Shown here: positions 2 to 32,767 of the stretch, in pieces
Position numbering within the stretch: position 1 is the first letter of the stretch
How the letters are laid out: each line of letters opens with the position of its first letter
Assembly: GCA_945882615.1 (NCBI GenBank)
Contig: CAMCWK010000029.1
Span: 1 to 38,475 of the forward strand
Length of the DNA: 38,475 nt
Origin: Rhizobium sp. Q54
Lineage (GTDB): Bacteria; Pseudomonadota; Alphaproteobacteria; Micropepsales; Micropepsaceae
Reading direction: 5' to 3'
Made by a program: the position numbers and the translations under genes
Notes under the pieces: model-generated
Told to the model about the DNA's origin: nothing
Database searches by the model: none
Seen by the model: the letters and a program-made list of their open reading frames with translations, nothing else

Positions 2-838
2 GTCTGCGCCGTCAAGGCGCCGGGCTTCGGCGATCGCCGCAAGGCCATGCTGGAAGACATCGCCACCGTCACCGGCGGCCAGGTCATCAGCGAGGACATC
101 GGCATCAAGCTTGAGAACGTCAAGCTGGACATGCTGGGCAAGGCCAAGAACGTCAAGATCGACAAGGACAACACCACGATCATCGACGGCGCCGGCAAGA
201 AGACCGACATCCAGAGCCGCGTCACCCAGATCAAGGCGCAGATCGAGGAAACCACCAGCGACTATGACAAGGAAAAGCTGCAGGAACGCCTGGCCAAGCT
301 GGCCGGCGGCGTTGCGGTGATCCGCGTCGGCGGCGCCACGGAAGTCGAAGTCAAGGAGCGCAAGGACCGCGTCGATGACGCCCTGAACGCCACCAAGGCC
401 GCCGTGGAAGAAGGCATCGTGCCGGGCGGCGGTACCGCCCTGCTCTATGCCGCCAAGACGCTGAAGGACCTGACGGGCGACAATGAGGACCAGACCCAGG
501 GCATCAACATCGTGCGCCGGGCGATCCAGTATCCGCTGCGCCAGATCGTCAGCAATGCCGGCCAGGAAGCCAGCATTGTCGTCGGCAAGCTGCACGACCA
601 GAAGTCCAACACCTTTGGCTACAATGCCCAGACCGGTGAATATCAGGACTTCATCGATGCCGGCATCGTCGACCCGACCAAGGTTGTGCGCGTGGCCCTG
701 CAGAACGCCGCTTCGGTGGCGGGCCTGCTGATCACCACGGAAGCCATGATCACCGACCGTCCCAAGAAGGACAGCGGCGCTCCGGGCGGCATGCCCGGCG
801 GCGGCGGCATGGGCGGCATGGGCGACATGGACTTCTAG
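2..838 (+). CDS. groL: 60 kDa chaperonin GroEL, 3' part (5' end outside the window)
   Basis: GroEL forms the double-ring ATP-dependent folding chamber in the cytoplasm with its GroES lid. The frame is open from the first bases and begins inside the apical domain ([18 protein letters not shown]). It continues through the intermediate/equatorial segment with [15 protein letters not shown] and ends in the typical Gly-Met-rich tail [17 protein letters not shown]. About 278 residues are present, roughly half of the usual 545, so the start lies upstream of the window. GC-rich codon use matches a core gene. A strong terminator follows the stop. Identification is essentially certain; whether this is the only groEL copy cannot be seen here. 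Confidence 0.98.
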
Positions 839-867
839 TCCAGACGTTCAATCAGTTCAAAAATGCG

Positions 868-899
868 AAAGGCCCGGTGGAAACACCGGGCCTTTTCGT
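868..899 (+). terminator. Rho-independent terminator after groEL
   Basis: GGCCCGGTG (871-879) pairs with CACCGGGCC (884-892) across a short A-rich loop and is followed by TTTTCGTT. It lies about 30 bp after the groEL stop and separates groEL from the AT-richer cassette downstream. Confidence 0.92.
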
Positions 900-964
900 T
901 TCGGCGTTGTAAAGGTTTCGTTAACTCTGCTAATCCAGTTTCAGTGAGTCGGCAGGAGCGGCGA

Positions 965-1471
965 ATGAGCGAAAAGCTGCTATATACAGTTGGATACGAA
1001 GGCGCCGATTTGAGCGACTTCCTTGCCACTCTCAAAGCTCACAAAATCAAACAAATCATTGATGTGCGCGAGCTACCGCTCTCACGAAGGCGGGGGTTTT
1101 CTAAAAATGTACTGGCGTCAGCTTTGGCAGAACTCGGCATCAATTATCTGCACCTAAAATCTCTTGGCGATCCCAAGCTAGGTAGAGAAGCTGCGCGCAG
1201 CGGTGACATCGCGGGTTTTCGGCGCATATACGGCCGTCATCTAGCAGGGAACGAGGCCAAGGCTGGTCTTGCCGATGCCATGGCGGCCGCCAGGAAGGCG
1301 ACTTCCAGTCTGCTTTGCTATGAACGCGATCATGCCGATTGCCATCGGTCCATCATCGCTGACAAACTCAAATCTGATTTCAAAGTACAACATATTGCAG
1401 TCTCCCCGCCGGTCTTAAAGAGGCGAAAAATCGCCAGTGACCTTACCGCAGGATCTGTCGCGATCGGGTGA
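965..1471 (+). CDS. DUF488 family protein, first gene of a three-gene cassette
   Basis: A 168-residue protein of the DUF488 family. Signatures are LLYTVGYEG at residues 5-13, DVRELPLSRRRGFSK near 33-47, and the family's C-terminal motif LCYERDHADCHR, in which Cys118, Glu120 and Cys126-His127-Arg128 are the conserved positions. The biochemical role of the family is not established. I start at the ATG at 965, preceded by GGCAGGAGCGGCGA; an upstream in-frame start at 863 would overlap the groEL terminator and adds non-family residues. The gene is clearly AT-richer than groEL. The next gene starts inside its 3' end, suggesting translational coupling and one transcript. Family assignment is firm; function is unknown. 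Confidence 0.85.
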   Translation: MSEKLLYTVGYEGADLSDFLATLKAHKIKQIIDVRELPLSRRRGFSKNVLASALAELGINYLHLKSLGDPKLGREAARSGDIAGFRRIYGRHLAGNEAKAGLADAMAAARKATSSLLCYERDHADCHRSIIADKLKSDFKVQHIAVSPPVLKRRKIASDLTAGSVAIG

Positions 1472-2225
1472 AACCGACGCCATCATCATGATTAAAGCCG
1501 CGCCCCAAGTCGGGCAGCGTCACGGTGAGACTGTTTGCTGTGCCGGTATCAGCATTGATGGCAAATGGCTACGGCTCTATCCAGTGTGCTTCAGAACTCT
1601 TGATGATGGCCAGAAGTTCGGCCGTTGGGATCGAGTTCACTTTAAATGGCGCAAGCCAAATGATGATCCACGCACCGAGAGCAGACGCGTGGATCAAGAT
1701 AGCATCTCCATCACCGGTAGCCTTAAGCCATCTGAGCGCGAGAGGTTTCTGAGCAGCCTTATTGTGACTAGCCTCGACAAGGAGCGCGAAAAGGGAAACA
1801 GTTTGGCACTCCTCAAGGCCCGCAATTTCAAATTCAAAATTGCCAAACGAACCACAGAGGAAATTTCAGCTGATCAGTCACGTTTTGACGCACTACGGGC
1901 GCAACCAGACATGTTCAATACGAAAGCAATAATCCCTTACAACCCGTGCCCATACGAATTTAAATTTCGATATCAGACCGATGACGGCGCGCGCGAAGGC
2001 ACATGCCAAGACTGGGAAATGGAAGCCACGTATTTCAGATGGAGCAGAGAATACGGTGAAGCGGCGGCGCTAGATAAGATGCAGCAGGTATTTGGCGTGG
2101 ATTACCCCACCAATGGCATGCTACTCGCAATGGGAACGCATTCGCTTTACCCCGATACATGGCTGATCAACGGGGTGATACGACTTGATGATATCAAGCA
2201 AGGTTCTTTGAACCTCAGGCAATGA
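1437..2225 (+). CDS. Conserved protein of unnamed family, second gene of the DUF488-DUF4238 cassette
   Basis: A 262-residue soluble protein with no signal peptide or membrane segment. I do not have a family name. Visible features are an N-terminal block (HGETVCCAGI, then WLRLYPVCFRTLDD, residues ~30-58) of a type I associate with proteins encoded beside DUF488 genes. A basic region with KWRKPNDDPRTESRRVD follows, then a tryptophan/aromatic-rich C-terminal half. The start is a GTG at 1437, 35 bp inside the DUF488 gene, preceded by AGAGG; the ATG at 1488 is an alternative that would cut off little of the conserved block. The stop overlaps the next start as ATGA. The tight packing argues that the three products work together, possibly on nucleic acid, but nothing here proves a function. 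Confidence 0.75.
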   Translation: MTLPQDLSRSGETDAIIMIKAAPQVGQRHGETVCCAGISIDGKWLRLYPVCFRTLDDGQKFGRWDRVHFKWRKPNDDPRTESRRVDQDSISITGSLKPSERERFLSSLIVTSLDKEREKGNSLALLKARNFKFKIAKRTTEEISADQSRFDALRAQPDMFNTKAIIPYNPCPYEFKFRYQTDDGAREGTCQDWEMEATYFRWSREYGEAAALDKMQQVFGVDYPTNGMLLAMGTHSLYPDTWLINGVIRLDDIKQGSLNLRQ

Positions 2226-3118
2226 GTGACCCAAAGCTTCATCATTTCGTACCACAGTTCTACCTACGTCGCTTCACAGACGCTGATGGACTCCTATGGG
2301 TCTGGAACCGCGATAGCGACAAAGCCTTCCGAACCAACCCTACTAACGTCGCAGCACAAAATTATTTTTATCTCCTCGCCGAGCTAATCCCGCTCGGACA
2401 TGACCCACTTACGATGGAGAGACAGTTTCCCCAGATCGAGCACGAGGTGGCGGCAATAACCGAGCAATGGCTGCACTGGCTCAGACTTGCAGATGTTTAC
2501 GACCAAATCGAAATTCCAGATATCAACCGTGAAATCGTTGCGATGTTCATTGCACTACAATTCTTGCGAACAGAAGACGCCCGCCAAATACTAGGCCTCA
2601 TGGCCGAAGACGCCGAAGCTTCTGCGTCGATTTCTGAGGAAGAGAAAAGGTGCATTCATACCGATCTCCTCTGGGACGAACCTATTGTCAAAGACTTGGC
2701 TAAAAGAATTCAGGATTCTGTCTGGGTATTCGCACGCAACGACACCGACGTGTCGTTTCTGACATCAGATAACCCGGTGGCATTTCGTACCGCCGATAAT
2801 CGGCGATGGGTCAAAGTAGGATTCTATAGTGCAGGAACGTACGTGGTCTATCCAATTGCTCCGGACATCATCATGTACTGCTATCCGAGGGAATCGCCGG
2901 GGGACCAACTGATTAAATTCGACCGGATGCTATCGCCTGTTCAAATGACAAAAGAGATGGTCGAAAGCGAAAACAGCGGTCAAGTCTTTATGGCCTCGCG
3001 CTTTGTCTTCTCACTTGATGGCGATTTTGCCTACGCGCGCAGTTTTGCGCCGTCCATCGGTACTGATCTCTATGGCCCTGATAAAGAAAATCCAGTTGGT
3101 CCAAAAGCTTCTGGATAA
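2222..3118 (+). CDS. DUF4238 domain-containing protein, third gene of the cassette
   Basis: A 298-residue protein of the DUF4238 family. The N-terminus carries the diagnostic HHFVPQFYLRRF block (His7, His8), followed by W-N-R-D-S. The central SFLTSDNPV motif (Thr181-Ser182-Asp183-Asn184-Pro185) is the second family hallmark. The long helical middle segment contains EIVAMFIALQFLRTEDAR. There is no signal peptide. The family's activity is unknown to me; conserved His, Asp and Asn residues would suit an enzyme. The ATG overlaps the previous stop by four bases (ATGA), so translation is probably coupled. GC is low for this genome, as in its two partners, which suggests recent acquisition as a unit. 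Confidence 0.83.
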   Translation: MSDPKLHHFVPQFYLRRFTDADGLLWVWNRDSDKAFRTNPTNVAAQNYFYLLAELIPLGHDPLTMERQFPQIEHEVAAITEQWLHWLRLADVYDQIEIPDINREIVAMFIALQFLRTEDARQILGLMAEDAEASASISEEEKRCIHTDLLWDEPIVKDLAKRIQDSVWVFARNDTDVSFLTSDNPVAFRTADNRRWVKVGFYSAGTYVVYPIAPDIIMYCYPRESPGDQLIKFDRMLSPVQMTKEMVESENSGQVFMASRFVFSLDGDFAYARSFAPSIGTDLYGPDKENPVGPKASG

Positions 3119-3222
3119 TGCAACCATTAAAAAGAAACACTTTCCCTGAACGGGCCTTGGTCTTTTGTTGATCTCATCCGGAGCTTGACCAATAATCACC
3201 CGGAACGAAGCAAGCGGCGGTG

Positions 3223-4476
3223 ATGGCTGGACGAGGCACTGGGTTCCTGCTCGCATTGGGTGCCCTGACATTTGCATTCACTCTGAATTCGGTTGCTGAA
3301 CCAGCAGTGCCGGCGGCGAAGCCGCTTAGCCAGAGCGTCAAAAGTTCCGCCAGCAAAAAGCCCGCCGTCCAGAAGAAGCAGGCTGTCCGCAAGAAGGCGA
3401 CGCGCAAGACCGCCGCGCGCAAGGCCAAACCGGCGGCCAAGTCGCTGGCCATCACCGTCAAGCCGCCGAACGACGCGCCGGATTTCGATTTCACCGACCG
3501 CCTCAAACAGGCGCGCGAACTCGCCGCCAAGGCCCCGCTGCTGCCCGGCGACATGGAGGTGGACAAGGCGTCCGGCAATCTCAGCCGCTTTGTCTGGACG
3601 CTGGTGGTGGGCAAGAAGACCGGGCCGCTGACCGTCGTGCGCATGGACCAGAAGGGCAATAACGACAAGAATCTCGACATCACCTGGCGGATCGACAATT
3701 TCCTCAACACCCGCTTCCAGGTCGCAGGCGATTATATCGTCTTCGCCCAGCGCCGCCCGGTGCGCGCCCCGGTAAAGGGCGGGTGGGAGCCGGCGGTCTA
3801 TACCGCCTACGCGCCCGAGCTCGACACCGCCAGGATGCGCGCCCACGGCATGGACTATCTCAGGCTCCAGGAGCGGCGCTCCTACAATCACCTGCACAGC
3901 CATGACGTGCGCAGCCGCGTGACGCCGGAGCAGACCGTGGTGGAGAATATCCCGCGCTCCATGGTGCTGCGCCTGATGATCACCGAGCATATCGACCCGG
4001 CGCGGATGAAATATGTCGGGATCGAGCAGTGCATCCACGAGGTGCTGATCACGGTGGCGGCCAACCGCGAAAAATCCTATGCCTATGCCCGCTCCAGCGC
4101 CGGCGCGCTGGGCATCTCCCAGTTCATGGAGAGCAGCTATGAGATGGTGCGCAAGCATTATCCTTCCGCGCCGCTCGAGCCCCATTTCGATACCGGCATG
4201 CGCGACCTGCGCAACGCCGTCATGGCGTCGGTGCTGCACATGGACCTGCAACTGGCGCACCTGCCGGCCGCGTATCTGAAGCGCTTCAACGATTCCAGCT
4301 ATCACCTCGCCGCCTACCTGGCCGCGGGCTACAACCGCAACACGGTCAAGGTGGTGCGCACCTATCGCCGCACCAAGACCTTTACCGGCGGCGACGCGCC
4401 CTATGAGAACAAGATGTATGTGCGCATCCAGGACTGGGTCGGCGGCTATCTCAAGCGCAAATACGAGATTTCCTGA
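3223..4476 (+). CDS. Secreted lytic transglycosylase-like (SLT domain) protein
   Basis: A 417-residue exported protein. The signal peptide covers residues ~1-26 (hydrophobic GFLLALGALTFAF). A very Lys/Ala-rich linker follows (~40-75), which may bind the anionic wall. The C-terminal half has an SLT-like region: SSAGALGISQF (~residues 291-301), corresponding to the GAxGLMQ block of soluble lytic transglycosylases, and later LAAGYNRNTVKVV, matching the AYN block. Glu283 (in REKSYAYA) sits one residue off the usual spacing for the catalytic glutamate, so activity is likely but not certain. Such enzymes cleave peptidoglycan glycan strands in the periplasm. A GTG directly before the chosen ATG (3220) is an equivalent start. 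Confidence 0.72.
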   Translation: MAGRGTGFLLALGALTFAFTLNSVAEPAVPAAKPLSQSVKSSASKKPAVQKKQAVRKKATRKTAARKAKPAAKSLAITVKPPNDAPDFDFTDRLKQARELAAKAPLLPGDMEVDKASGNLSRFVWTLVVGKKTGPLTVVRMDQKGNNDKNLDITWRIDNFLNTRFQVAGDYIVFAQRRPVRAPVKGGWEPAVYTAYAPELDTARMRAHGMDYLRLQERRSYNHLHSHDVRSRVTPEQTVVENIPRSMVLRLMITEHIDPARMKYVGIEQCIHEVLITVAANREKSYAYARSSAGALGISQFMESSYEMVRKHYPSAPLEPHFDTGMRDLRNAVMASVLHMDLQLAHLPAAYLKRFNDSSYHLAAYLAAGYNRNTVKVVRTYRRTKTFTGGDAPYENKMYVRIQDWVGGYLKRKYEIS

Positions 4477-22783: not shown

Positions 22784-22873
22784 GGACAGGTGGCCGAGTG
22801 GTTGAAGGCGCACGCCTGGAAAGTGTGTAACGGTGAAAGCCGTTCGAGGGTTCGAATCCCTCTCTGTCCGCCA
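22784..22873 (+). tRNA. tRNA-Ser (anticodon GGA)
   Basis: A 90-nt class II tRNA. The acceptor arm GGACAGG pairs with TCTGTCC (last pair G-T). The D-arm is TGGCCGAGTGG. The anticodon stem CACGC/GTGTG encloses loop CTGGAAA with anticodon GGA, reading UCC/UCU. A long variable arm (AACGGTGAAAGCCGTT) is typical of serine tRNAs. The T-arm is GAGGGTTCGAATCCCTC. The 3' end GCCA is encoded. An integrase gene lies just downstream, and tRNA-Ser genes are frequent island targets. Confidence 0.97.
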
Positions 22874-23109
22874 AGTTCGCCCTTAACCTCCTGATTTGAA
22901 TCGCTTTCCCAAACGAAGGCTGTTCTCACCCCTATTTCATCCCCTATTCCGCCAGATGCCCAGGGATGCGTCAGGGCGGCCGTTCTGGGCAGGGCAATAA
23001 GGGTGCGGGCGAGAGATTGAATGGCGTGAGAGAAATGCGCGCAGCTTCTACAAGCGATCCAATTTAGCGCCGCGAAAGCGGACATAAGTGCACCCTTATT
23101 ACTACCTCA
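22874..23109. other. Non-coding gap between tRNA-Ser and integrase
   Basis: No supportable gene is visible. The minus-strand frame covering it reads through the tRNA and is an artefact. If an attachment site exists, its left half would be the tRNA 3' end plus this stretch. I found no second copy of the tRNA 3' end elsewhere in the window. Confidence 0.5.
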
Positions 23110-23739
23110 TCAGATTTCCACCTGCTCAGACAAGCTGAGAGCATCGTCCACCTCAATCCCAAGGTAGCGAACTGTGCTTTCCAGCTTTGTGTGACCTAGG
23201 AGGAGTTGGACGGCGCGAAGGTTGCCTGTCTTTCGATATATCTGAGCCGCCTTTGTCCGACGCATGGAGTGGGTGCCATATACAACGCTGTCTAGACCGG
23301 CGTCTTCCACCCACTTGTGAACCAGTCGCGCGTACTGACGGATCGACAGGTGATCCTTGGCGTGGAACCTGCTGGGAAAGATATAAGCCCCATAATTTGT
23401 GTCGGTCGATTCTAGCAGTGCTTCGAGCGCAGCTCGCGTCTGCAGGCTGATCTCGAATTGCACAGGGCGGCCGGTCTTCTTCTGGATGATAGTTGTTCTT
23501 TCGCGGGCGCGTGATCCAACATAAACGTCCTGAATCTTGAGACGAACCAAATCGCAGGCTCGAAGCTTGCTATCAATCGCCAAGTCGAAGAGCGCTACAT
23601 CTCGTCGGCTGCCATGAAGTTCCAGTCTGACGCGGATGGCCCATACGTCCTTAGGCTTGAGAGGACGCTTTTGGCCGATTAGCTGGCCCTTATTCCACGG
23701 ACGGCCATCCGGAGCGTTCAAGGTCTGATCAGAGGGCAT
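23110..23739 (-). CDS. Tyrosine recombinase/integrase, catalytic domain only
   Basis: A 209-residue protein made almost only of the tyrosine-recombinase catalytic domain. The full set is present: Arg60 (SKLRACDLV), Lys88 (IIQKKTGRP), His157 and Arg160 (THSMRRT), His183 (LLLGHTKLEST) and the nucleophile Tyr192 (VRYLGIE). The usual N-terminal arm- and core-binding domains are missing; a short N-terminus with a WNKGQLIGQKRPL motif, common to a widespread short integrase family, takes their place. It lies 237 bp from tRNA-Ser and points toward it, the arrangement of a tRNA-targeting island integrase. No excisionase is visible. It could be active or domesticated. Confidence 0.88.
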   Translation of the reverse strand: MPSDQTLNAPDGRPWNKGQLIGQKRPLKPKDVWAIRVRLELHGSRRDVALFDLAIDSKLRACDLVRLKIQDVYVGSRARERTTIIQKKTGRPVQFEISLQTRAALEALLESTDTNYGAYIFPSRFHAKDHLSIRQYARLVHKWVEDAGLDSVVYGTHSMRRTKAAQIYRKTGNLRAVQLLLGHTKLESTVRYLGIEVDDALSLSEQVEI

Positions 23740-23821
23740 ACAGGTCTCCTGCTTACCAACCCTCCCGCTGTCTCATCAGCCCATTGCTGATAGTCTACGT
23801 TACAATTTTTCGGCTCAGGGC

Positions 23822-23899
23822 GAATGTCTGCTTCCCCCAAAAGCGGTCATTCGACCCCGGCCTGCCCAATGTCCGCTTTGCGCCAGAAGGGGACATTCT
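23822..23899. repeat. GTCCGC hairpin repeat, doublet
   Basis: Two hairpins, 23822-23853 (GTCTGCTT / AAGCGGTC) and 23868-23899 (GTCCGCTT / AAGGGGAC), 46 bp apart. Both are degenerate in one arm. The spacer contains CCCGGCCTGCCC. Confidence 0.8.
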
Positions 23900-24040
23900 G
23901 AGGACTGGGAAGCAGCATAGTTGCCCACCAGAACTTTAACCTCCCTCTGCCAATATGATCCCACAGAGCCTCGGATTCCTTCGGGCCTGTATTGATGACT
24001 GACCCGGCAGTGGGGGCACTACTGCCGGGTCGCTTTTTTC
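23900..24040 (+). ncRNA. Candidate small RNA ending at an orphan terminator
   Basis: The stretch ends in GACCCGGCAGT / ACTGCCGGGTC (24001-24011 / 24021-24031) plus CGCTTTTTT. No plus-strand gene precedes it for more than 1 kb. The 5' end shown is a guess bounded by the repeat doublet. Only the terminator itself is certain; the RNA is an inference. Confidence 0.35.
24001..24040 (+). terminator. Orphan strong terminator
   Basis: An 11-bp perfect stem GACCCGGCAGT / ACTGCCGGGTC with a GC-rich loop and a CGCTTTTTT tail. No upstream plus-strand gene. Confidence 0.88.
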
Positions 24041-24050
24041 CGCAGCCCCC

Positions 24051-24126
24051 ATGTCCGCTTTACCCGTAAGCGGTCATTCGTTTCCGACCCGCCCAATGTC
24101 CGCTTTGCGCCAAAAGCGGACATTCG
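24051..24126. repeat. GTCCGC hairpin repeat, doublet
   Basis: Hairpins 24051-24080 (centre TACCCG) and 24095-24126 (GTCCGCTTT-GCGCCA-AAAGCGGAC, the consensus form), 44 bp apart. Confidence 0.88.
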
Positions 24127-24147
24127 CCGCCGCTGATGGGCAGCGCA

Positions 24148-25737
24148 TCAATGCGCAGGGGCGAAGGCGCCGTCTGCTGCGGCCGCCGCTTCCAATGAAG
24201 GCAGATAATTCGGGGCCTTGCGCGCATGGGTGGCCTGCTCAAAGGCATGGCCCAGCGCCAGCATGGCCGCATCCGACCAGGCGGGCCCGATAAAGGACAG
24301 GCCCACCGGCAGGCCATGATCGTAGCCCATGGGCACGGTCAGGTGCGGATAGCCTGCTTCCGACGGAAGGCTGGCGGAATCGGGGCTGCCATAACCAGCG
24401 CTGCGGATGGAGTCGGTCAGGAAGGCCGGTCCCTGTGTGGGACGGATCACGGCATCCAGGTGATAGCGCGTGAACAAATCATCCAGCGCCGCGGTGGTCA
24501 GGCTTTTCAGTTCGTCACGGGCGTGGACATAGATCGGATCGTTGAGATCGCCCCGCGCCTGGGACTCGATCAAGATGTTCTGGCCGAACAAGGCAGTTTC
24601 CCGTGGGCTTGCGGCATTGAAGGCGATCAGGTCGGACAGGCTGCGGACCGTGCCGGTGGGCGTGCTGGCAAGATAGGCGTTCAGATTGCTCTTGAACTCA
24701 TATTGCAGGACCAGATGCTCATCGTCGGAAACAGGCGGGGCCACGAAATCCTTGATCGTGACGATCTGGGCGCCCTGCGCCGTCAAGGCGGCCAGCGCCT
24801 CGCCCAACCGCGTTTCGGTCTGCGCCGGCAGCGCGCCGGGCGACGGCAGCAACACCCCCAGCCTCTTTCCACGGAGCGATGCACCGGACAGCGCCGCGAA
24901 ATCGGATTTTTTCGCGTTCGCGTCCTTGGTGACCGCATCGGCTGCGTCGCTGCCCGCGATGGCATTCAGCACCAAGGCGGCATCGGCGACGCTGCGCGCC
25001 ATCGGCCCGGCGGTATCCTGGCTATGAGAAATCGGCACAACATAGGTGCGCGACACCAAACCCACGGTCGGCTTGAAGGACACGATACCGTTGAAGGAGC
25101 CCGGGCAGACCAGCGAGCCATTGGTTTCTGTGCCGATGGCGGCGGCGGCCAGACTTGCCGCAACCGCCGCGCCACTGCCGGAGGAAGAGCCGCAGGCGTT
25201 ACGGTTCAGCACATAGGGATTCTTCACCAGCCCGCCCACGCCCGACCAGCCCCAGATGGAATTGGAGGAGCGGAAATTCGCCCATTCGCTCAAATTGGTC
25301 TTGCCCAGGATTACCGCGCCCGCCGCCCGCAGCCGCGCCACCAGCGGCGCATCGCGGTGGGTGACATTGCCCGCCAGGGCCAGCGACCCGGCGGTGGTGG
25401 GCATGGGATCGGCGGTCTCGATATTGTCCTTCACCAGGATGGGAATGCCGTGCAGCGGCCCGCGCGCGCCCCTGATCTTGCGTTCGGCGTCCAGCGCTGC
25501 TGCGTCGGCGAAGGCATTGGGATTTACGGCGATTACGGCGCCAAGCCGCGGCCCGGCGCTGTCCAGCGCGTCAATGCGGGCGATATAGGCCCGCACCAGC
25601 TCGGCGGAGCTGACCCGGCCCGCCGCCATGTCGGCCTGCAGGGTGGCGATATCCTTTTCCGCGACTTGGTATCGCGCGGCATGGGCAGCGGCGATTCCCA
25701 AGACCAGGCCCAGCAACGCGATTGATAAAGCACGCAT
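24148..25737 (-). CDS. Exported amidase-signature-family hydrolase
   Basis: A 529-residue protein with a signal peptide at 1-21 (ending AHAARYQ). The amidase signature domain covers the rest. LHGIPILVKDNIET holds the catalytic Lys, and NRNACGSSSGSGAAVAASLAAA holds the cis-Ser. GTETNGSLVCPGSFNGIVSFKPT holds the nucleophile Ser, so the Ser-cisSer-Lys triad is complete. ISHSQDTAGPMARSVADAA and the C-terminal EAGYPHLTVPMGY are further family blocks. It hydrolyses an amide bond, probably in the periplasm; the substrate is unknown. It is high-GC like the core genome although it lies among AT-richer accessory sequence, flanked on both sides by hairpin doublets. Confidence 0.92.
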   Translation of the reverse strand: MRALSIALLGLVLGIAAAHAARYQVAEKDIATLQADMAAGRVSSAELVRAYIARIDALDSAGPRLGAVIAVNPNAFADAAALDAERKIRGARGPLHGIPILVKDNIETADPMPTTAGSLALAGNVTHRDAPLVARLRAAGAVILGKTNLSEWANFRSSNSIWGWSGVGGLVKNPYVLNRNACGSSSGSGAAVAASLAAAAIGTETNGSLVCPGSFNGIVSFKPTVGLVSRTYVVPISHSQDTAGPMARSVADAALVLNAIAGSDAADAVTKDANAKKSDFAALSGASLRGKRLGVLLPSPGALPAQTETRLGEALAALTAQGAQIVTIKDFVAPPVSDDEHLVLQYEFKSNLNAYLASTPTGTVRSLSDLIAFNAASPRETALFGQNILIESQARGDLNDPIYVHARDELKSLTTAALDDLFTRYHLDAVIRPTQGPAFLTDSIRSAGYGSPDSASLPSEAGYPHLTVPMGYDHGLPVGLSFIGPAWSDAAMLALGHAFEQATHARKAPNYLPSLEAAAAADGAFAPAH

Positions 25738-25799
25738 TGATGCCCCCTCTTTTGATCACAGTGGAGCGAGGCCCCAAACCAAAGTCAAACATGTCTCTC

Positions 25800-25876
25800 A
25801 ATGTCCGCTTTATCCGAAAGCGGTCATTCCCGCCCGGTCTGCCGAATGGCTGTTTTGCGCCAAAAGCGGACATTCG
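25800..25876. repeat. GTCCGC hairpin repeat, doublet
   Basis: Hairpins 25800-25830 (GTCCGCTTT / AAAGCGGTC) and 25844-25876 (left arm decayed to GGCTGTTTT, right arm AAAAGCGGACATTC intact), 44 bp apart. It lies upstream of the amidase. Confidence 0.85.
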
Positions 25877-25951
25877 GTGTGATCGATGACTTGGGGTCGA
25901 ATTACCTTTGGCCAACCAGCTCGCGGTTGGAGCGGGCGGAGGTAACGCCCT

Positions 25952-26224
25952 CTACTCCGCTACAGGAGAGGTGAACCTAAGACCCAGCTCTCCTTCGCCA
26001 TACCTAGTTGTGACGGCCTTAATGCTCAGTCCGCCCCTAAGGAACAATACGACCTCAGTACCTGACGGGGGGATGGCGTCACAAGTTATCTTCGCTCCAG
26101 TGGCCGATATGTTTACCACGGCGCAGGGAAGGTCCATATTTTCAATAGGGATAAATAGTCGGGCCTCTTCGTTGATAATCCGACGAGGTGATTCGCGGCG
26201 CTCTTTATCGTAGGGAGTGGGCAT
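25952..26224 (-). CDS. PilZ domain protein (probable c-di-GMP receptor)
   Basis: A 90-residue single-domain protein. The two c-di-GMP-contacting motifs of PilZ are visible: RxxxR at Arg10-Glu-Ser-Pro-Arg14 (with a second Arg at 15) and [DN]xSxxG at Asn38-Ile-Ser40-Ala-Thr-Gly43. The strand pattern CAVVNISATGAKITCDA, PPSGTEVVLFL and GELGLRFTSP is typical. Such small PilZ proteins bind cyclic di-GMP and act on motility, polysaccharide synthesis or transcription; the partner is unknown. The start at 26224 has GGGATGTCTG upstream. It is a single gene of moderate GC. Confidence 0.85.
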   Translation of the reverse strand: MPTPYDKERRESPRRIINEEARLFIPIENMDLPCAVVNISATGAKITCDAIPPSGTEVVLFLRGGLSIKAVTTRYGEGELGLRFTSPVAE

Positions 26225-26337
26225 CAGACATCCCAGTTCGGGTAGAAACTCTCTCTAGGCTAACACTTTAATACGAGACTATCGAGCCCAACCTCACGAG
26301 CGAATGAAGGGCGGGCTAACTCTGCGGGAGCAGAAAG

Positions 26338-26556
26338 ATGTCAAGGCGCAAGCCGCAAGTCAGTAACCTCGCAATTTGGCAGTCAGCGAAGCAGCTATTG
26401 GATTGCTACAACGAAACGGCCCTCAAAGAGGCAGTGAACCGCGTAGAAGAGGCGCGGAAAGTTGGCGACGCAGAAACAGAGGCCGTGTGGGTACGCGTTG
26501 CGCAAGCAGTTTCAGAGTTGCAAAGAATAAAACCGGATGAGGGATCGCTGCAGTAA
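26338..26556 (+). CDS. Small conserved alphaproteobacterial protein, unknown function
   Basis: A 72-residue soluble protein, probably all helical. The IWQSAKQLLDCYNETALKEA, AVWVRVAQAVSELQRIKP pattern belongs to a small orphan family that I recall from rhizobial-type genomes, often ending ELQRxKP. It has no named function. GGGAG lies at good distance before the ATG. Flanks are non-coding with hairpin repeats. Confidence 0.68.
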   Translation: MSRRKPQVSNLAIWQSAKQLLDCYNETALKEAVNRVEEARKVGDAETEAVWVRVAQAVSELQRIKPDEGSLQ

Positions 26557-26587
26557 CTATCCCTCCTTAACGCGCTAAAAACAGGCG

Positions 26588-26619
26588 GTATGTCCGCTTT
26601 GCGCCAGAAGCGGACGTTA
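26588..26619. repeat. GTCCGC hairpin repeat, single
   Basis: GTCCGCTTT-GCGCCAG-AAGCGGAC; one hairpin, close to consensus. Confidence 0.85.
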
Positions 26620-26775
26620 TATGGTCAGATCATCGCCGTGGCATTGGTGGAGTCCAATTGGGGCGGTAATCACGCCAATCGCGCCGAGCAGCCCAGCGAA
26701 CTTGAGCCACCTGCTGGTGTCCAAACTATTATCGCTGTTCCGGACTTGTTCATTATCAGTTCGGGGTGGGTTCAC
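26617..26775 (-). CDS. Possible tiny membrane protein (52 residues)
   Basis: A frame from GTG at 26775 encodes a polar N-terminus (NEQVRNSDNSLDTSRWLK) and one hydrophobic helix (FAGLLGAIGVITAPIGL), ending HQCHGDDLTI. The stop lies in the arm of the adjacent hairpin repeat. No Shine-Dalgarno is visible, and an ATG start is lacking. The composition is more protein-like than the overlapping frames, but this may be a decayed gene or chance. Confidence 0.3.
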   Translation of the reverse strand: MNPPRTDNEQVRNSDNSLDTSRWLKFAGLLGAIGVITAPIGLHQCHGDDLTI

Positions 26776-27143
26776 GGTGCCAGCAGCAGACTGCAAAAAA
26801 CTTCATTCCCAATAATATCAGCGGTCACCGTGTTTTGGGTCCGAAGGGCTCACTCAACCAATCGCCGCGCTCGTGCGGCTGCAGTGGTTCTCTAGGTCGA
26901 GTTTGAACGGCCCGGCAGTGCCCCCACCGCCGGGCCAGGCTAGAAATGCAGCGCCCGAAGGTAGGATTGAGGCGCTACGCGATGAAGATCGCAGACGCGG
27001 AGTTAATGTTCCGTTGTAATTGGACAGGCCCCATTCCGAACGACGCTGCAGCCATGGGCAGCGGCCACGCGCAGCCTCAGATACCAGCGTAAGTCTGATT
27101 ATCCGCTTTGGGTCAGGGGCAGCCCTTCCGCCCTGGTGAGCCC

Positions 27144-27175
27144 AATGTCCGCTTTGCGCCAAAAGCGGTCATTCG
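27144..27175. repeat. GTCCGC hairpin repeat, single
   Basis: AATGTCCGCTTTGCGCC then AAAAGCGGTCATTC; one mismatch between the arms. Confidence 0.87.
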
Positions 27176-27249
27176 CTTCTAAGGCCTTGCGCGCTGCGGA
27201 TCGGCATTCAAAACAGGCACTAGCCGGAACACAAAATGGTCATTCACGG

Positions 27250-27366
27250 TTGATTAATTAATAATGACTAGGCTGTGCCCAGTGGCCCTCTCCGGCTGCT
27301 GGTGGAAAGTGTAAAAATAAGAAGATGATGAAAAGCCCAGCGGCAAGCCACCGCTGGGTTTTTTTC
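27250..27366 (+). ncRNA. Candidate small RNA ending at an orphan terminator
   Basis: An AT-rich patch (GATTAATTAATAATGAC, 27250-27266) that could hold a promoter precedes ~90 nt without a coding frame, then the terminator at 27334-27366. No plus-strand gene precedes it. The RNA is inferred from the terminator; its start is uncertain. Confidence 0.35.
27334..27366 (+). terminator. Orphan strong terminator
   Basis: CCCAGCGG (27336-27343) pairs with CCGCTGGG (27351-27358), followed by seven T. Confidence 0.88.
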
Positions 27367-27452
27367 CATTTTTAGCGCCTTAACATGCCGCTATTAGCAG
27401 CCGCCAAAATCAACCGATGCATCAGGGCACTAAAAGACGCAAACCAGTGGCG

Positions 27453-27483
27453 GAATGTCCGCTTTTCTCAGGAGCGGCCATTC
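27453..27483. repeat. GTCCGC hairpin repeat, single, degenerate
   Basis: GAATGTCCGCTTTTCTCAGG then AGCGGCCATTC. It overlaps the very end of the minus-strand Hpt-like gene. Confidence 0.7.
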
Positions 27484-27976
27484 ACACAGAACTCCGGGGT
27501 GCCATAACCGGCAACGCGTCAACCGCCCGAGTGAGGTGCGAGGAGAGCATCTCTTGCGTTTTCTCGTCACCGGCACGGCCATTAGCAATAAGGCTGAGAG
27601 CACTGATGTGAGAACGTATTGCTTCCGGCATACGGGGATCGGCGGTGTCGCGCTCCTGTAATAGTACTTCAAATGATTTGCAGAATGTGTTTGCGCCCTT
27701 GCTCTGTGCGAGCGCACTACTTCCCCGTATATCGCGCACGATGGTAAAAAAATTTCGCCATTCCGCGTCTTCGCAATTATTCTGCATGAGGCGGGGTAGC
27801 AAGTCTTCCAGGCAACTGATGCGCTGGCGAAGAAAGTCATTAAAGCTTTCTTGGACCCGCTCTGACGCACGCTCTCCCATCGCGACCAGCTGCGTGATCG
27901 GCAACGCATTCGGCCCAGAAATCCGTTTCCTGAGCGATGATCCAACTCTTTTCGGATCGGAGATCAAACCGCCCAT
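27482..27976 (-). CDS. Hpt-like phosphotransfer protein lacking the usual histidine
   Basis: A 164-residue helical protein. The segment WRNFFTIVRDIRGSSALAQSKG aligns with the phosphorylation helix of the Hpt-like proteins that accompany single receivers in Alphaproteobacteria (normally I-A-H-D-[IL]-[KR]-G). Here the phosphorylated His is replaced by Arg81. The C-terminal PEAIRSHISALSLIANGRAGDEKT also fits that family (a helix with IxxHxxAL). It could be an inactive decoy or scaffold, or I have mis-aligned the helix. It starts 13 bp inside the end of the response regulator gene, so the two are co-translated. Start 27976. Confidence 0.6.
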   Translation of the reverse strand: MGGLISDPKRVGSSLRKRISGPNALPITQLVAMGERASERVQESFNDFLRQRISCLEDLLPRLMQNNCEDAEWRNFFTIVRDIRGSSALAQSKGANTFCKSFEVLLQERDTADPRMPEAIRSHISALSLIANGRAGDEKTQEMLSSHLTRAVDALPVMAPRSSV

Positions 27977-28404
27977 GACTGCTGCCTATCGGCATCTTCT
28001 TCGTCGGCTAGGATTACCTTTAGCAAGTGATTCATCAGGGTGCCTGCCGAGAAGGGCTTAACAATGTAACTGTCCGCGCCCTCGCCCATTGCGGTCGAGA
28101 CATCGTCGGCACCATTGTGCCCGGTCAGCATGATGAAAGGAATCCGAGAAAGCCTACTGGAGGTGTCGAGCCGAAGCTTGCGTAAGACCGACAGCCCGTC
28201 CACCGGATACATCTGCCAATCACAGATGATCAGGTCGGGGTACTGAATTTCCATGCGCGCAAAAGCTTGCTCAGCAGATTCTGCAAAATATACTTTGGTA
28301 GCACCAAAACAAAGGAGCATTTCCTTCAATAAGCGGCGCACAAACTCGCTGTCGTCGACAACCAAGATGCTGATCTGCGAAAAATCCGCTTTTGATAAAG
28401 TCAC
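27964..28404 (-). CDS. Single-domain response regulator (CheY-like)
   Basis: A 146-residue receiver domain without an output domain. The acidic pocket is Asp17-Asp18 (ILVVDDSEF), the phosphoacceptor is Asp62 (LIICDWQMYPVDG), and the switch residues are Thr94 (IMLTGHNG) and Lys116 (YIVKPFSA). It is complete. It would pass or accept phosphate from a kinase or Hpt protein; the overlapping downstream gene encodes an Hpt-like protein whose His is missing, so its real partner may be elsewhere (the HWE kinase at 7349-8347 is one possibility in the window). A perfect 18-bp inverted repeat lies about 80 bp upstream of its start. Confidence 0.93.
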   Translation of the reverse strand: MTLSKADFSQISILVVDDSEFVRRLLKEMLLCFGATKVYFAESAEQAFARMEIQYPDLIICDWQMYPVDGLSVLRKLRLDTSSRLSRIPFIMLTGHNGADDVSTAMGEGADSYIVKPFSAGTLMNHLLKVILADEEDADRQQSWAV

Positions 28405-28480
28405 CTGGCGACCTGTGCCAAGCCAGCCGAGGCGATTGGATTACAAGTGTGCAAGTGCGCCCCCCGTCATTTATCAATTA

Positions 28481-28519
28481 ACATCGAAGAGATCGGGGCT
28501 ACCCCGATCTCTTCGATGT
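28481..28519. repeat. Perfect 18-bp inverted repeat with 3-bp loop
   Basis: The arm 28481-28498 (ACATCGAAGAGATCGGGG) is exactly complementary to 28502-28519; the loop is CTA. No U-tract on either strand. It lies upstream of the response regulator gene and is unlike the GTCCGC hairpins. Confidence 0.92.
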
Positions 28520-28643
28520 TCGAATTCCGGTAGGGTGTTTACACCAGAACCCGAATTGTCGCAATTTGTCGCCTAAAAGTGAACCAACCGAAAAAATGTT
28601 GTGCTCTGCGACCGGAATTGGCCGAATTGTGGAATATCGCCCT

Positions 28644-28720
28644 GAACGTCCGCTTTGGGTCAAAAGCGGACATTCGTCCCGAGGCTGCCAATGACTGCTT
28701 TTGACCCAAAGCGGACATTG
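28644..28720. repeat. GTCCGC hairpin repeat, doublet
   Basis: Hairpins 28644-28676 (centre GGGTCA) and 28690-28720 (GACTGCTTTTGACCCAAAGCGG), 46 bp apart. The spacer CCCGAGGCTGCC resembles the other doublets. Confidence 0.88.
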
Positions 28721-28784
28721 GGACCTGAGCCTTTCGCGCGTCAATCTTGTGCCGGAGAGTTGACCAGTAGGGTAGCTGCAGGCC

Positions 28785-29201
28785 CTACCCTTCTCGGTTG
28801 CGGAAATTGTCAAAAGCGAACGGCCCGGGGCCCATTCCAACCAGAAGTAAGAGACCTCCGCAGATCGCGATATCGCGGGTAAAAAGCGCAAACTCCGCTG
28901 CGCGTTGGGGGCCGATATTCAGATGCCAAAAGTCGTGCATGGTAACCGTGGAAATAAGTGAGACCGCAAATAGGGTCACTGCGCCATGGCGTGCGTGATA
29001 TCCGATAAAAAGTAACATGCAGCTGATAAGGATGAGAAAGAAAACGACTAAAAGAATTAGAGGCGCGACAGGCACGCCCTTGGAGGTCATGGCCTGCACC
29101 GTCGGTGACCAGTTCTCAACTATATTTGTCGCGGCGAGCCCATAAAAAAATACAATCGCGCAGCGCCCCAAGAAGGGCGATATTACTTCTGAAATTGCCA
29201 T
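28785..29201 (-). CDS. DoxX family membrane protein
   Basis: A 138-residue polytopic protein of the DoxX group: FLGRCAIVFFYGLAATNIVE, then MTSKGVPVAPLILLVVFFL, GYHARHGAVTLFAVSLIS, the conserved MHDFWH, and TRDIAICGGLLLLVGMGPGP. About four membrane helices. DoxX-type proteins are linked to redox/thiol stress or quinone chemistry at the inner membrane; the exact reaction is unknown. I start at the ATG at 29201 because GGGGGAACC lies before it; a longer frame to 29228 is less likely. Confidence 0.85.
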   Translation of the reverse strand: MAISEVISPFLGRCAIVFFYGLAATNIVENWSPTVQAMTSKGVPVAPLILLVVFFLILISCMLLFIGYHARHGAVTLFAVSLISTVTMHDFWHLNIGPQRAAEFALFTRDIAICGGLLLLVGMGPGPFAFDNFRNREG

Positions 29202-29314
29202 TGGTTCCCCCGCCATACCAATTCGCACTTCGGATCACGAGGTGAGGGCCTGGCCGTCCATGTAACGCTCAGGATGAAAAATAGTACCAGTTGGTATGCG
29301 CTTCTGACGCAAGT

Positions 29315-29347
29315 GGACGTCCGGTCCTGACCCAAAGCGGACATTCG
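29315..29347. repeat. GTCCGC hairpin repeat, single, degenerate
   Basis: GGACGTCCGGTCCTGACCC then AAAGCGGACATTC; left arm partly lost. Confidence 0.7.
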
Positions 29348-29394
29348 GTTCTTATTGTGGACACGGTTCCAGAATATACCTGAGTAGCTGCCTC

Positions 29395-29505
29395 TCAGGC
29401 TTCCGCCCGAAGGACCACACCGCACCACAATTCCGCCGTATGCCGGTCCACAAGCTGCTTGGTCTGTTGGATTGCCTCGTCATCGCCGCGCAATGCAACG
29501 CAATT
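29395..29505 (-). pseudogene. Fragment of a small alphaproteobacterial protein gene
   Basis: The frame NCVALRGDDEAIQQTKQLVD, then RHTAELWCGVVLRAEA, matches the C-terminal part of a widespread tiny protein family (pattern DDEAAI-x-x-x-KQLVDGHDVELW). A stop lies directly before the first residue and no start codon is available, so the N-terminal half is lost or frameshifted. Identification is from memory of the pattern. Confidence 0.4.
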
Positions 29506-29538
29506 CTAGCAGGTGCAAAGGAATAGAATGACCAGCCG

Positions 29539-29898
29539 TTACTCAGCGGCGATGGAAAAGGCTGAACTGACTTCAGACTGGGAGTTTCTAGGCTGAAACG
29601 CGAGCGCTGCTGTGTCCCGCATTTGTAAGTCTTCGAGTTTCCTCATCATCAGACGGTCAGCAATCGAGAGAGGCGCGCAGCGGTCAATAAACTCGGCATG
29701 TTGGCCTGCCCGACTCATAGTGTCCGCTATTTCGCGCGCCGTGGCCAAGGAAACGCTGCAGGCGATGACCGTGCGGGGACCGTTCGCTGTATCGAATCGA
29801 AGTAGCAGGTTCATTGGGGCGTCTGGCGATGTGCTGCGCTCCACTTCTAACAACTCCTGCTTTTCGTCAGCGGGTCGAGGCTTGCCAAGCATATCCAT
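29539..29898 (-). CDS. Hypothetical protein, ~119 residues
   Basis: No family recognised. The soluble protein has an N-terminal part (MDMLGKPRPADEKQELLEVE), then a strand-helix core that reads like a complete small domain: PMNLLLRFDTANGPRTVIACSVSLATAREIADTMSRAG. A middle with FIDRCAPLSIADRLMMRKLED and a low-complexity Ser/Ala C-terminus follow. CCGGGGGACTTC before the ATG at 29898 gives a good ribosome site; the frame extends six residues further to 29916. Moderate GC. It lies in the accessory-like region with no close neighbours. Confidence 0.62.
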   Translation of the reverse strand: MDMLGKPRPADEKQELLEVERSTSPDAPMNLLLRFDTANGPRTVIACSVSLATAREIADTMSRAGQHAEFIDRCAPLSIADRLMMRKLEDLQMRDTAALAFQPRNSQSEVSSAFSIAAE

Positions 29899-30020
29899 GA
29901 AGTCCCCCGGGGTCATCCTGGATTATAACGCTATACGATGGATTTGGTGCCAACGCGGAGCCGGCGCACCGGCAGGGGTGTGAGGCCTCGTGGCCTATCA
30001 AGCCTTATAATAACGCTTGC

Positions 30021-30052
30021 GAATGATTGCTTTTGACTCAAAGCGGACATTG
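30021..30052. repeat. GTCCGC hairpin repeat, single
   Basis: GATTGCTTTTGACTC then AAAGCGGACATTG; left arm diverged. It lies just after the autotransporter stop on the minus strand. Confidence 0.75.
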
Positions 30053-30088
30053 ATCCCTCGTCCAATCGAGATAGCGGGTGCAGAATAA

Positions 30089-32443: not shown

Positions 32444-32573
32444 GAAAAAATCCCCTGGTGTAACACCGGCGATCTCTTTCGCGCCTCGACGCACATAACG
32501 TCTGTCGTTCGAAAAAGTTCCAATTCGTGGCCATGTGAGCCCAGGCTCCAGGGCTGGGCTTTCCGCGATAGGG

Positions 32574-32640
32574 GAATGTCCGCTTATGGCGCAAAGCGGA
32601 CAGCGGCTGTACGACCGCTTCTGACCCAATGCGGCATTGG
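32574..32640. repeat. GTCCGC hairpin repeat, short doublet
   Basis: Hairpins 32574-32604 and 32610-32640, starts 36 bp apart, with a shorter spacer than the other doublets. It lies upstream of the autotransporter gene. Confidence 0.8.
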
Positions 32641-32710
32641 CAAAACTAGTTTATGATATTTGCGTTGTGGCAGGTTTGCTGAGAGCGCGGCTCTGGTTCG
32701 GAGCTTTAAC

Positions 32711-32746
32711 TAGAAAAGCCTCGCGAGATTTCTCTCACGAGGCTTG
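32711..32746 (-). terminator. Terminator of the DUF2541-like/Asp-repeat fusion gene
   Basis: On the minus strand, GCCTCGTGAGA and TCTCGCGAGGC pair with one G-T/C mismatch region, then CTTTTCT. About 20 bp after the stop at 32768. Confidence 0.85.
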
Positions 32747-32767
32747 ACTTCAATCTACGATGGTTCG

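Follow-up and report, generated by a model that had tools for sequence, protein, structure and literature searches.

Which of the three overlapping genes that lie 3' of groEL in Rhizobium sp. Q54 belong together, and what might they do? This question is raised by the stretch of DNA analysed here (the window), i.e., the entire 38,475-nucleotide contig CAMCWK010000029.1, the start of which falls within groEL. The three genes encode a DUF488 protein, a middle protein, and a DUF4238 protein; an initial annotation made from the sequence alone had suggested that they move as a block and could serve in defence or in the repair or modification of nucleic acids. We found that the DUF488 protein and the middle protein are a candidate defence pair already catalogued in PADLOC as PDC-M19A and PDC-M19B (hereafter, M19B), that this pair is a stable two-gene core, and that DUF4238 is a rider. 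Our preferred explanation, to which we give about an even chance, is that the pair is a mobile DNA-processing module that docks on the replication sliding clamp and probably acts against invaders, with DUF4238 as an optional effector.

Pairing of DUF488 and M19B

In the window, the DUF488 protein matches the PADLOC model PDC-M19A (PDLC04505; E value 7.6e-29) and the middle protein matches PDC-M19B (PDLC04508; 1.9e-32), and the two genes are adjacent with a 35-base overlap. They are members of PDC-M19, of which A is DUF488 and B is unnamed, and to which the window adds DUF4238; the PADLOC copy used gives no description of PDC-M19. The distribution of M19B is patchy, with matches in six of 61 genomes of the set of relatives (the window's genome included, and one of the six, G002, with a 27-residue remnant) and in 10 of the 398 genomes of a phylum sample. 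DUF488 lies within 300 bp of M19B in 86 of 90 loci; with the plasmid and phage loci added, 97 of 102 loci have it at a distance of at most 400 bp (88 on the same strand and nine on the opposite strand). On viral contigs, DUF488 is found within 500 bp of M19B in 67 of 69 cases, and in the other two, M19B itself runs off the end of the contig sequence examined. The orientation of the pair varies, yet DUF488 and M19B stay together.

In these counts, the M19B loci from genome contigs are the best 80 of 321; L041, L046, and L075 were dropped beforehand as duplicates of L024, L025, and L035, L062 and L191 were left out as truncated, and the early-stopping L068 and L087 were kept. Five open-ended viral contigs were left out of the pairing count, and seven of the 69 (open-ended or shorter than 220 amino acids) were left out of the motif and clustering counts. 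Six of the 69 viral M19B proteins are identical over the last 200 residues to one of the 102, i.e., the two sets overlap, and viral contigs may carry host DNA. At one locus of a congener (L028:7927-8199), a remnant of the C-terminus of M19B still ends in QLSLL.

All three genes could instead make up one obligate three-protein system, as suggested by the 4-base overlap of M19B and DUF4238 in the window, by their direct abutment in the congener G008, and by the conservation of the gene order in these two congeners. In G008, the same order is found 3' of groEL, about 1 kb off, with identities of 74% (DUF488), 77% (M19B), and 60% (DUF4238). However, this order is restricted to the window and G008 among the loci examined; DUF4238 accompanies M19B at three of 102 loci and at no viral locus (0/69; iterated model search); and among 30 DUF4238 loci from a phylum scan, the pair is present within the 1.5-kb flank at the window's own locus only. 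Based on these counts, we reject a unit in which the third gene is obligatory and consider a joint three-protein system highly improbable.

In G018 (locus L030), the window's downstream gene directly follows groEL at a distance of about 0.3 kb. We take this locus for an empty site, although each of the two genes is represented there by a pair of open reading frames (ORFs). Eighteen genomes of the genus matched groEL, of which G014 lacked a locus and G022 had only 399 bases downstream; among the 17 congeneric groEL loci, the cassette is present in two (G000, i.e., the window, and G008). The DNA 3' of groEL is variable, with one gene common to G002, G005, G009, and G020 and another stretch common to G008 and G010. 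A conserved groEL operon is ruled out by the presence of the cassette in two of 17 loci and by this variable downstream content. Because of the locus counts together with the empty site and the comparison among congeners, we regard the pair as the system and DUF4238 as its rider. The proposal of movement as a block thus holds for DUF488 and M19B (97 of 102 loci) and fails for DUF4238 (three of 102, and none of 69 viral loci); similarly, the counts of side-by-side occurrence across genomes showed that the families are rarely found together in the case of DUF4238 and not in that of DUF488 and M19B. In G008, small ORFs separate groEL from the cassette (L024:2938-3954), and G010 has a similar stretch without the cassette; by eye, these ORFs resemble DUF4160/DUF2442-type genes.

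The GC content of the DUF488, M19B, and DUF4238 genes is 0.523, 0.511, and 0.495, respectively, versus 0.635 for groEL and 0.632 for the downstream gene, confirming that the cassette is AT-richer than both neighbours. At third codon positions (GC3), the values are 0.515, 0.551, and 0.515 versus 0.886 and 0.845, and because of this difference the three-gene block looks foreign. Together, GC3 and the patchy distribution (6/61 and 10/398 genomes) support horizontal gain, and the cassette is not a fixture at groEL with the GC content typical of the clade.

Clamp-like motifs in M19B

Canonical motifs for binding to the beta clamp are described as Q-phi-x-[LM]-[FL] and Q-phi-x-[LM]-x-[FL], in which phi is aliphatic (excerpts of PMC11139829), and a looser QxxLF form is also in use (passages of PMC12926913). 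M19B proteins end in sequences such as QPTLF, QLSLF, QRSLF, and QGNLF or in six-residue forms such as QGSLPL and QMSLDL; perfect QLSLF is found in cyanobacteria and perfect QISLF in the M19B of a Gordonia phage. We scored tails strictly (canonical, with an aliphatic second residue) and loosely (Q..[LM](x)[FL]). The loose motif is present in 80 and the strict motif in 28 of 100 M19B tails, and in 46 and 19, respectively, of 62 viral tails. Among the controls, DUF488 tails fit in 0/97 (strict) and 1/97 (loose) cases, other ORFs of at least 150 amino acids from the same loci in 10/1712 and 17/1712, neighbour genes in 2/278 and 3/278, and shuffled M19B tails in 3.0% and 8.2%. The widest tail pattern fits 93 of 100 M19B proteins versus 42 of 1712 other ORFs and, after clustering at 60% identity, 52 of 63 representatives. 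M19B also has an internal motif of the form Q..[LMF][FL], which is present in 94 of 100 proteins; the corresponding values are 16/715 for other ORFs of 200-350 amino acids, 10/206 for neighbour genes, and 6.0% for shuffled stretches.

In the AlphaFold2 model of the window's M19B (see below), the internal motif is within a loop that follows the helix at residues 140-155, and the tail has lower values of the predicted local distance difference test (pLDDT; 68 for residues 251-260 and 53 for residues 261-262). Short docking motifs usually sit in flexible regions. Based on these sequence patterns, we suggest that M19B may dock on the replication sliding clamp.

Archaeal relatives of the pair

Archaea use PCNA, and therefore a clamp motif should change there. 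We found four distinct archaeal homologues of M19B, all of which are on plasmids. Their tails are PCNA-box-like in three of four cases, i.e., QPGLDSF in Natronococcus, SSGIDKWL-Q in S. islandicus, and NYGIDRWL in Saccharolobus shibatae, and the region corresponding to the internal QxxLF of bacterial M19B contains QATLDQYI or QATLEQYI in the two Sulfolobales proteins. These stretches resemble the PCNA-binding consensus Q-x-x-I-x-x-F-F (excerpts of PMC4549789), with Sulfolobales tails that lack the leading Q. NucS (sections of PMC8228993) and IS1634 transposases (PMC4549789, same excerpts) have been reported to alternate between motifs for beta and for PCNA. Two scans of viral contigs gave no further archaeal homologues, and the phage records yielded Gordonia only.

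On two of these archaeal plasmids, a fusion of ParB_N, a helix-turn-helix (HTH) domain, and DUF488 adjoins M19B, as identified by Pfam (S. shibatae, L194:2433-3482; Haloquadratum, L195:4582-5664). An archaeal ParB-fold protein that is fused to DUF488 and HTH has been described to bind CTP (excerpts of PMC12704722, 2025).

The Q-x-x-L-F stretches might, on the other hand, dock M19B on DUF488 or on another partner and have nothing to do with a clamp. Such a function would agree with their occurrence in nearly all pairs and with the many stretches that depart from the strict clamp consensus (28/100 strict). It is at odds with the PCNA-box-like endings in three of four archaeal proteins, of which that of S. 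shibatae occurs although an adjacent DUF488 is kept as a ParB fusion, and with the perfect QLSLF and QISLF of cyanobacteria and the Gordonia phage. We therefore regard docking on such a partner as improbable.

Directly 3' of M19B on the Sulfolobales plasmids lies a further gene (L193:4346-4852 and L194:4358-4849), of which the S. islandicus copy has no Pfam match. It has an IEID...FExK pattern that reads like that of a PD-(D/E)xK nuclease, and the position 3' of M19B may be open to interchangeable effector genes.

Predicted fold of M19B

By sequence, M19B gave one chance-level line in Pfam (DUF7108, E value 0.17), no match in NCBIfam, and a single chance-like line among PDB sequences (hemocyanin, 0.32). 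The AlphaFold2 model, which was built from 71 aligned sequences, has a mean pLDDT of 92.7 and a predicted template modelling score of 0.88. With Foldseek against the PDB, the top five matches are CST, baculovirus LEF-3 (twice), RPA, and a telomere end-binding protein (E values of 3e-4 to 1.2e-3), followed at lower ranks by HIN-200 DNA sensors. The proteins in the first five rows are nucleic acid binders with an oligonucleotide/oligosaccharide-binding (OB) fold. Using VIA-align, we obtained Z scores of 8.0 with PriB (residues 7-95) and with an archaeal RPA domain (residues 6-97), with a root mean square deviation (rmsd) of 2.7-3.2 over 82-89 residues, and of 7.0 with RMI1 for the second half (residues 105-255); by the program's own warning, Z scores of 7-8 are within the range reached by common arrangements. 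Because such scores are common, we describe M19B with caution as having a tandem-OB-like architecture with modest best matches to single-strand DNA-binding proteins, and the model suggests that it may bind DNA. In the initial annotation, the middle protein was described as basic and aromatic; it is weakly basic (isoelectric point 8.2, net charge +2, 9.9% aromatic residues), while the basic one is DUF488 (isoelectric point 9.8).

M19B shares its genetic setting with the dual OB-containing domain DuOB (PF22557), the genes of which also adjoin DUF488: among three DuOB loci (two of them over the Pfam cut-off), DUF488 is the next gene in all three. The two Sulfolobales M19B proteins match DuOB with E values of 0.0019 and 0.00058 (18.7 and 20.4 bits, cut-off 27), and two of the 14 members of alignment A4 also match it below the cut-off (best E value 0.0021). 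No DuOB match was found for the window's M19B (E≤1) or for two cyanobacterial proteins and the Natronococcus protein (E≤0.05). In a comparison of profiles, the N-terminal parts align with an E value of 0.0023 but a probability of 12.6%; the search with the M19B model does not find the three DuOB-matching ORFs, and these, unlike M19B, end without a Q-x-x-L-F tail. Based on these sequence comparisons, M19B may be distantly related to DuOB and share its partner, which we consider a lead and not a membership. At two loci (L268:430-2124 and L269:1315-3070), a further gene, presumably of the DUF4326 family and with a C-x-CKP-x-ACHG-like motif, lies after DuOB and DUF488, forming a parallel three-gene arrangement.

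DUF488, the putative enzyme

The window's DUF488 protein is a clear member of its family (PF04343, 98.6 bits versus a cut-off of 22.2), and its AlphaFold2 model has a pLDDT of 92.2. C118, E120, C126, H127, and R128 are invariant among 70 aligned proteins, all of which are partners of M19B, bearing out the Cys118/Cys126-His-Arg motif noticed earlier; the conserved C...CHR site, which by our own reading defines the DUF488 family, is kept. No sequence relatives were found in the PDB, and fold searches gave weak Rossmannoid matches, with VIA-align Z scores of 9.1 for the N-terminal half of CbiL and 8.3 for that of diphthine synthase, neither of which is diagnostic. Burroughs and Aravind (2023) reportedly group RapZ-C, DUF488, and DUF4326 in the rhodanese-phosphatase superfamily and predict DNA-end processing; the window's protein has the DUF488 domain in common with this clade, and its predicted fold resembles halves of CbiL and diphthine synthase.

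DUF488 was found in 50 of 150 sampled genomes and must have other settings because M19B was found in 10 of 398. One Streptomyces plasmid encodes a DUF488 protein with an N-terminal HTH, and because of this fusion and the ParB-HTH fusions, DUF488 appears to be repeatedly tied to DNA-binding domains. We speculate that its chemistry may take place on DNA ends.

A model for the pair

We propose that the tandem-OB-like domains of M19B would bind DNA that probably is single-stranded or contains ends, and that M19B would dock via its C-terminal and internal motifs on the sliding clamp, i.e., on beta in bacteria and on PCNA in archaea. Docked M19B would position DUF488, with its predicted Rossmannoid fold and Cys/Glu/Cys-His-Arg site, on newly replicated DNA, the ends of which DUF488 might process or modify. 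This would likely interfere with phages, plasmids, and other invading replicons. In the window's genome, the pair would have been inserted between groEL and its neighbour, with DUF4238, by way of the 4-base overlap, as an optional effector. More tentatively, we extend this model to a clamp-guided immune or DNA-processing module of bacteria, archaea, plasmids, and phages in which a tandem-OB adaptor on the clamp, with a motif adjusted to beta or PCNA in each domain of life, delivers a DUF488 DNA-end enzyme to the nascent DNA of invaders, with some archaeal DUF488 domains carried by a ParB-type protein that slides on DNA and with swappable effectors, such as DUF4238, encoded by the third gene.

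Several findings weigh against docking on the clamp and the fold that we assign to M19B. The widest tail pattern also fits 19.6% of shuffled M19B tails, so composition helps this pattern, and after clustering at 45% and 40% identity, a smaller fraction of representatives fits (13/20 and 8/12, respectively); the M19B sequences are related, and the counts are therefore not independent. The second motif position is often not aliphatic, as reflected in the 28 strict tails among 100; the window's QGSLNL fits Q-x-x-L-x-L rather than the strict form, and neither of the window's motifs (QPDMF and QGSLNL) has an aliphatic second residue. The Haloquadratum M19B lacks a PCNA-like ending, and because two of the three PCNA-like archaeal proteins are close relatives, there are two independent cases for the expected change and one against it; also, DUF488 was not found in the stretches of S. 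islandicus and Natronococcus, i.e., in two of the four archaeal cases. Finally, the Foldseek matches of M19B have template modelling (TM) scores of 0.2-0.3 and an rmsd of 12-24 Å.

An alternative function at the clamp would be replication arrest, in which M19B fills the clamp groove and DUF488 controls or licenses M19B. The toxin SocB is a precedent for such occupation of the groove (excerpts of PMC9690074), two motifs per protein could outcompete the polymerase, and the two genes overlap in the window. However, blocking a groove needs no large fold of the DNA-binding type, DUF488 has an invariant enzyme-like site and does not look like an antitoxin, and nine loci have the two genes on opposite strands, which is unusual for toxin-antitoxin pairs. 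We consider arrest by M19B quite improbable.

Under the clamp-docked model, a close parallel is EndoMS/NucS, which has a DNA-binding domain with some similarity to single-strand DNA-binding proteins and a C-terminal clamp tail, with a PCNA motif in archaea and a beta motif in Actinobacteria (sections of PMC8228993). It differs in that NucS has its own RecB-like nuclease, while the putative enzyme of the pair, DUF488, is encoded separately. No NucS chain among PDB sequences matched the profile of M19B at E≤1, and the Foldseek match to an EndoMS chain (rank 27, TM score about 0.1) is not meaningful.

In the literature searched, nothing joins DUF488 with a replication-clamp motif or names PDC-M19 (Burroughs and Aravind 2023 was outside this search); excerpts of PMC12704722 contain both "DUF488" and "sliding clamp", with the clamp text concerning ParB and the title of a reference. 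Within this literature, the pair is already known as a candidate, and the tandem-OB and clamp-docking reading is new here. DUF488 is widespread, and Pfam still labels it a domain of unknown function. Given a partner that hints at the clamp, what was an anonymous candidate for defence becomes a precise hypothesis that is cheap to test. If the model is true, the pair would be a system for immunity or DNA processing that finds its place of action by way of the sliding clamp, and the chemistry of DUF488 could be tested on a defined substrate, i.e., newly replicated DNA ends.

Mobility and genetic neighbourhood

The pair is present on 21 plasmid records, 12 of which are typed as conjugative, and in seven Gordonia phage records, supporting the proposed link to mobile elements. 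In a Gordonia phage (L181:3042-7110), genes 43 and 42 are the pair, on opposite strands; gene 43 touches an annotated immunity repressor, and the pair lies between this repressor and the integrase (gene 39). Carriage on plasmids and phages fits a cargo for conflicts; equally, the pair could protect or process the DNA of its own carriers.

We scanned 212 of the 282 neighbouring proteins given by a simple ORF rule, in two sets of 106; those left out are mostly very short or very long. PADLOC (1e-10) matched mainly DNA methyltransferase models, with up to 8/106 and 3/106 per model, as well as AbiEi, AbiEii, capP, MzaA, PD-Lambda-5_B, and PDC-S33 once each and mad2 twice; these are raw counts among the best 25 of 58 and 25 of 35 families. 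With Pfam, N6_N4_Mtase was found in 11 of the 212 proteins (eight and three in the two sets), Resolvase in three and four, and Phage_integrase in two and two. The remaining Pfam families (best 25 of 110 and 116) are largely metabolic or housekeeping and form no defence island, which counts against an anti-invader role, and embedding in a defence island is thus weak as a candidate explanation. DNA methylase genes lie upstream of the pair in some loci (L042:2749-4113; L195:1446-2938, annotated as methyltransferases). A link to defence or DNA processing is plausible; the link to a neighbourhood of defence genes is weak.

These observations bear on whether the pair serves immunity or, with a logic like that of NucS, is a clamp-linked accessory for DNA repair or end processing that benefits the carrier replicon or the host. 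The latter would account for the matches to OB-type folds and the clamp-like motifs, for conjugative plasmids and temperate phages as carriers, for the archaeal ParB fusion, and for the largely ordinary neighbour families. It accounts less well for the patchy distribution (10 of 398 genomes), the cataloguing of the pair as a defence candidate, and its overlap with a gene of an anti-phage family in the window, and we consider such an accessory somewhat unlikely.

DUF4238, the optional third gene

The DUF4238 protein is a member of its family (PF14022, 128.7 bits versus a cut-off of 27), and its match to the PADLOC model DUF4238-Pers is weak and partial (8.5e-6, best stretch residues 1-123). One member of the DUF4238 family confers strong resistance to T7 (excerpts of PMC9122126), and because of this member, by analogy, DUF4238 probably adds an effector to the pair in this genome; we infer that the two may cooperate. 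The window protein has the DUF4238 domain in common with this single-gene anti-phage system but differs from it in its weak match to DUF4238-Pers, a model which we assume to represent a tested protein of the Rousset 2022 type, and in being encoded in an operon. DUF4238 is a rider that has been retained long enough for two species to share it. At L068, the third locus with both DUF4238 and M19B, it is on the opposite strand and converges on an early-stopping middle gene. The earlier proposal of a His-His/TSDNP motif stood in part: H8, D183, and P185 are conserved in at least 90% of 29 sequences, while H7, T, S, and N are below 70%.

Organization of the locus

The ORF coordinates (Table 1) confirmed that the three genes lie on the + strand between groEL and the gene at 3220, with overlaps of 35 bases between DUF488 and the middle gene and 4 bases between the middle gene and DUF4238. 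The GTG start of the middle gene aligns with the ATG at which its G008 homologue starts, which supports it. The hairpin 3' of groEL has a terminator-like score on the - strand only and falls short of the T-run rule on the + strand.

Table 1. Features at the 5' end of the window
Feature	Coordinates	Strand	Basis and remarks
groEL, 3' part	47..838	+	Stop at 838; upstream border of the insertion; GC3 0.886
Hairpin 3' of groEL, probable terminator	868..895	.	12 pairs; terminator scan
DUF488 protein (PDC-M19A), 168 aa, predicted enzyme	965..1471	+	PF04343, PADLOC, AlphaFold2
DUF488 C118-x-E120 ... C126-H127-R128, putative active site	1316..1348	+	Invariant in 70 aligned proteins
PDC-M19B (middle gene), 262 aa, tandem-OB-like, predicted DNA-binding partner	1437..2225	+	PADLOC, AlphaFold2, modest fold matches
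Internal clamp-motif-like QPDMF, M19B residues 156-160, predicted loop	1902..1916	+	Motif scan, AlphaFold2
C-terminal clamp-motif-like QGSLNL, M19B residues 255-260, lower-confidence tail	2199..2216	+	Motif scan, AlphaFold2
DUF4238 protein, 298 aa, optional third gene	2222..3118	+	PF14022, 128.7 bits; PADLOC, partial
Downstream border gene, weakly SLT/MltB-like below cut-offs, not core	3220..4476	+	Follows groEL directly in G018 (locus L030)

A scan of positions 780-3300 for repeats or att-like ends found one 16-base direct repeat, with both copies within DUF488, and no inverted pair. The downstream gene (3220-4476) had been called core-like; at E≤0.001, it was found in five of 61 genomes, its own included, and so does not look like a core gene. 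Further along the window, positions 22784-33325 contain, after a tRNA-Ser, a phage-type integrase (23110-23739, - strand), an amidase, and an autotransporter (30089-32629). The GC content of the window drops to about 0.52-0.59 over 26-33 kb, and the region from 22784 to 33325 is a possible genomic island.

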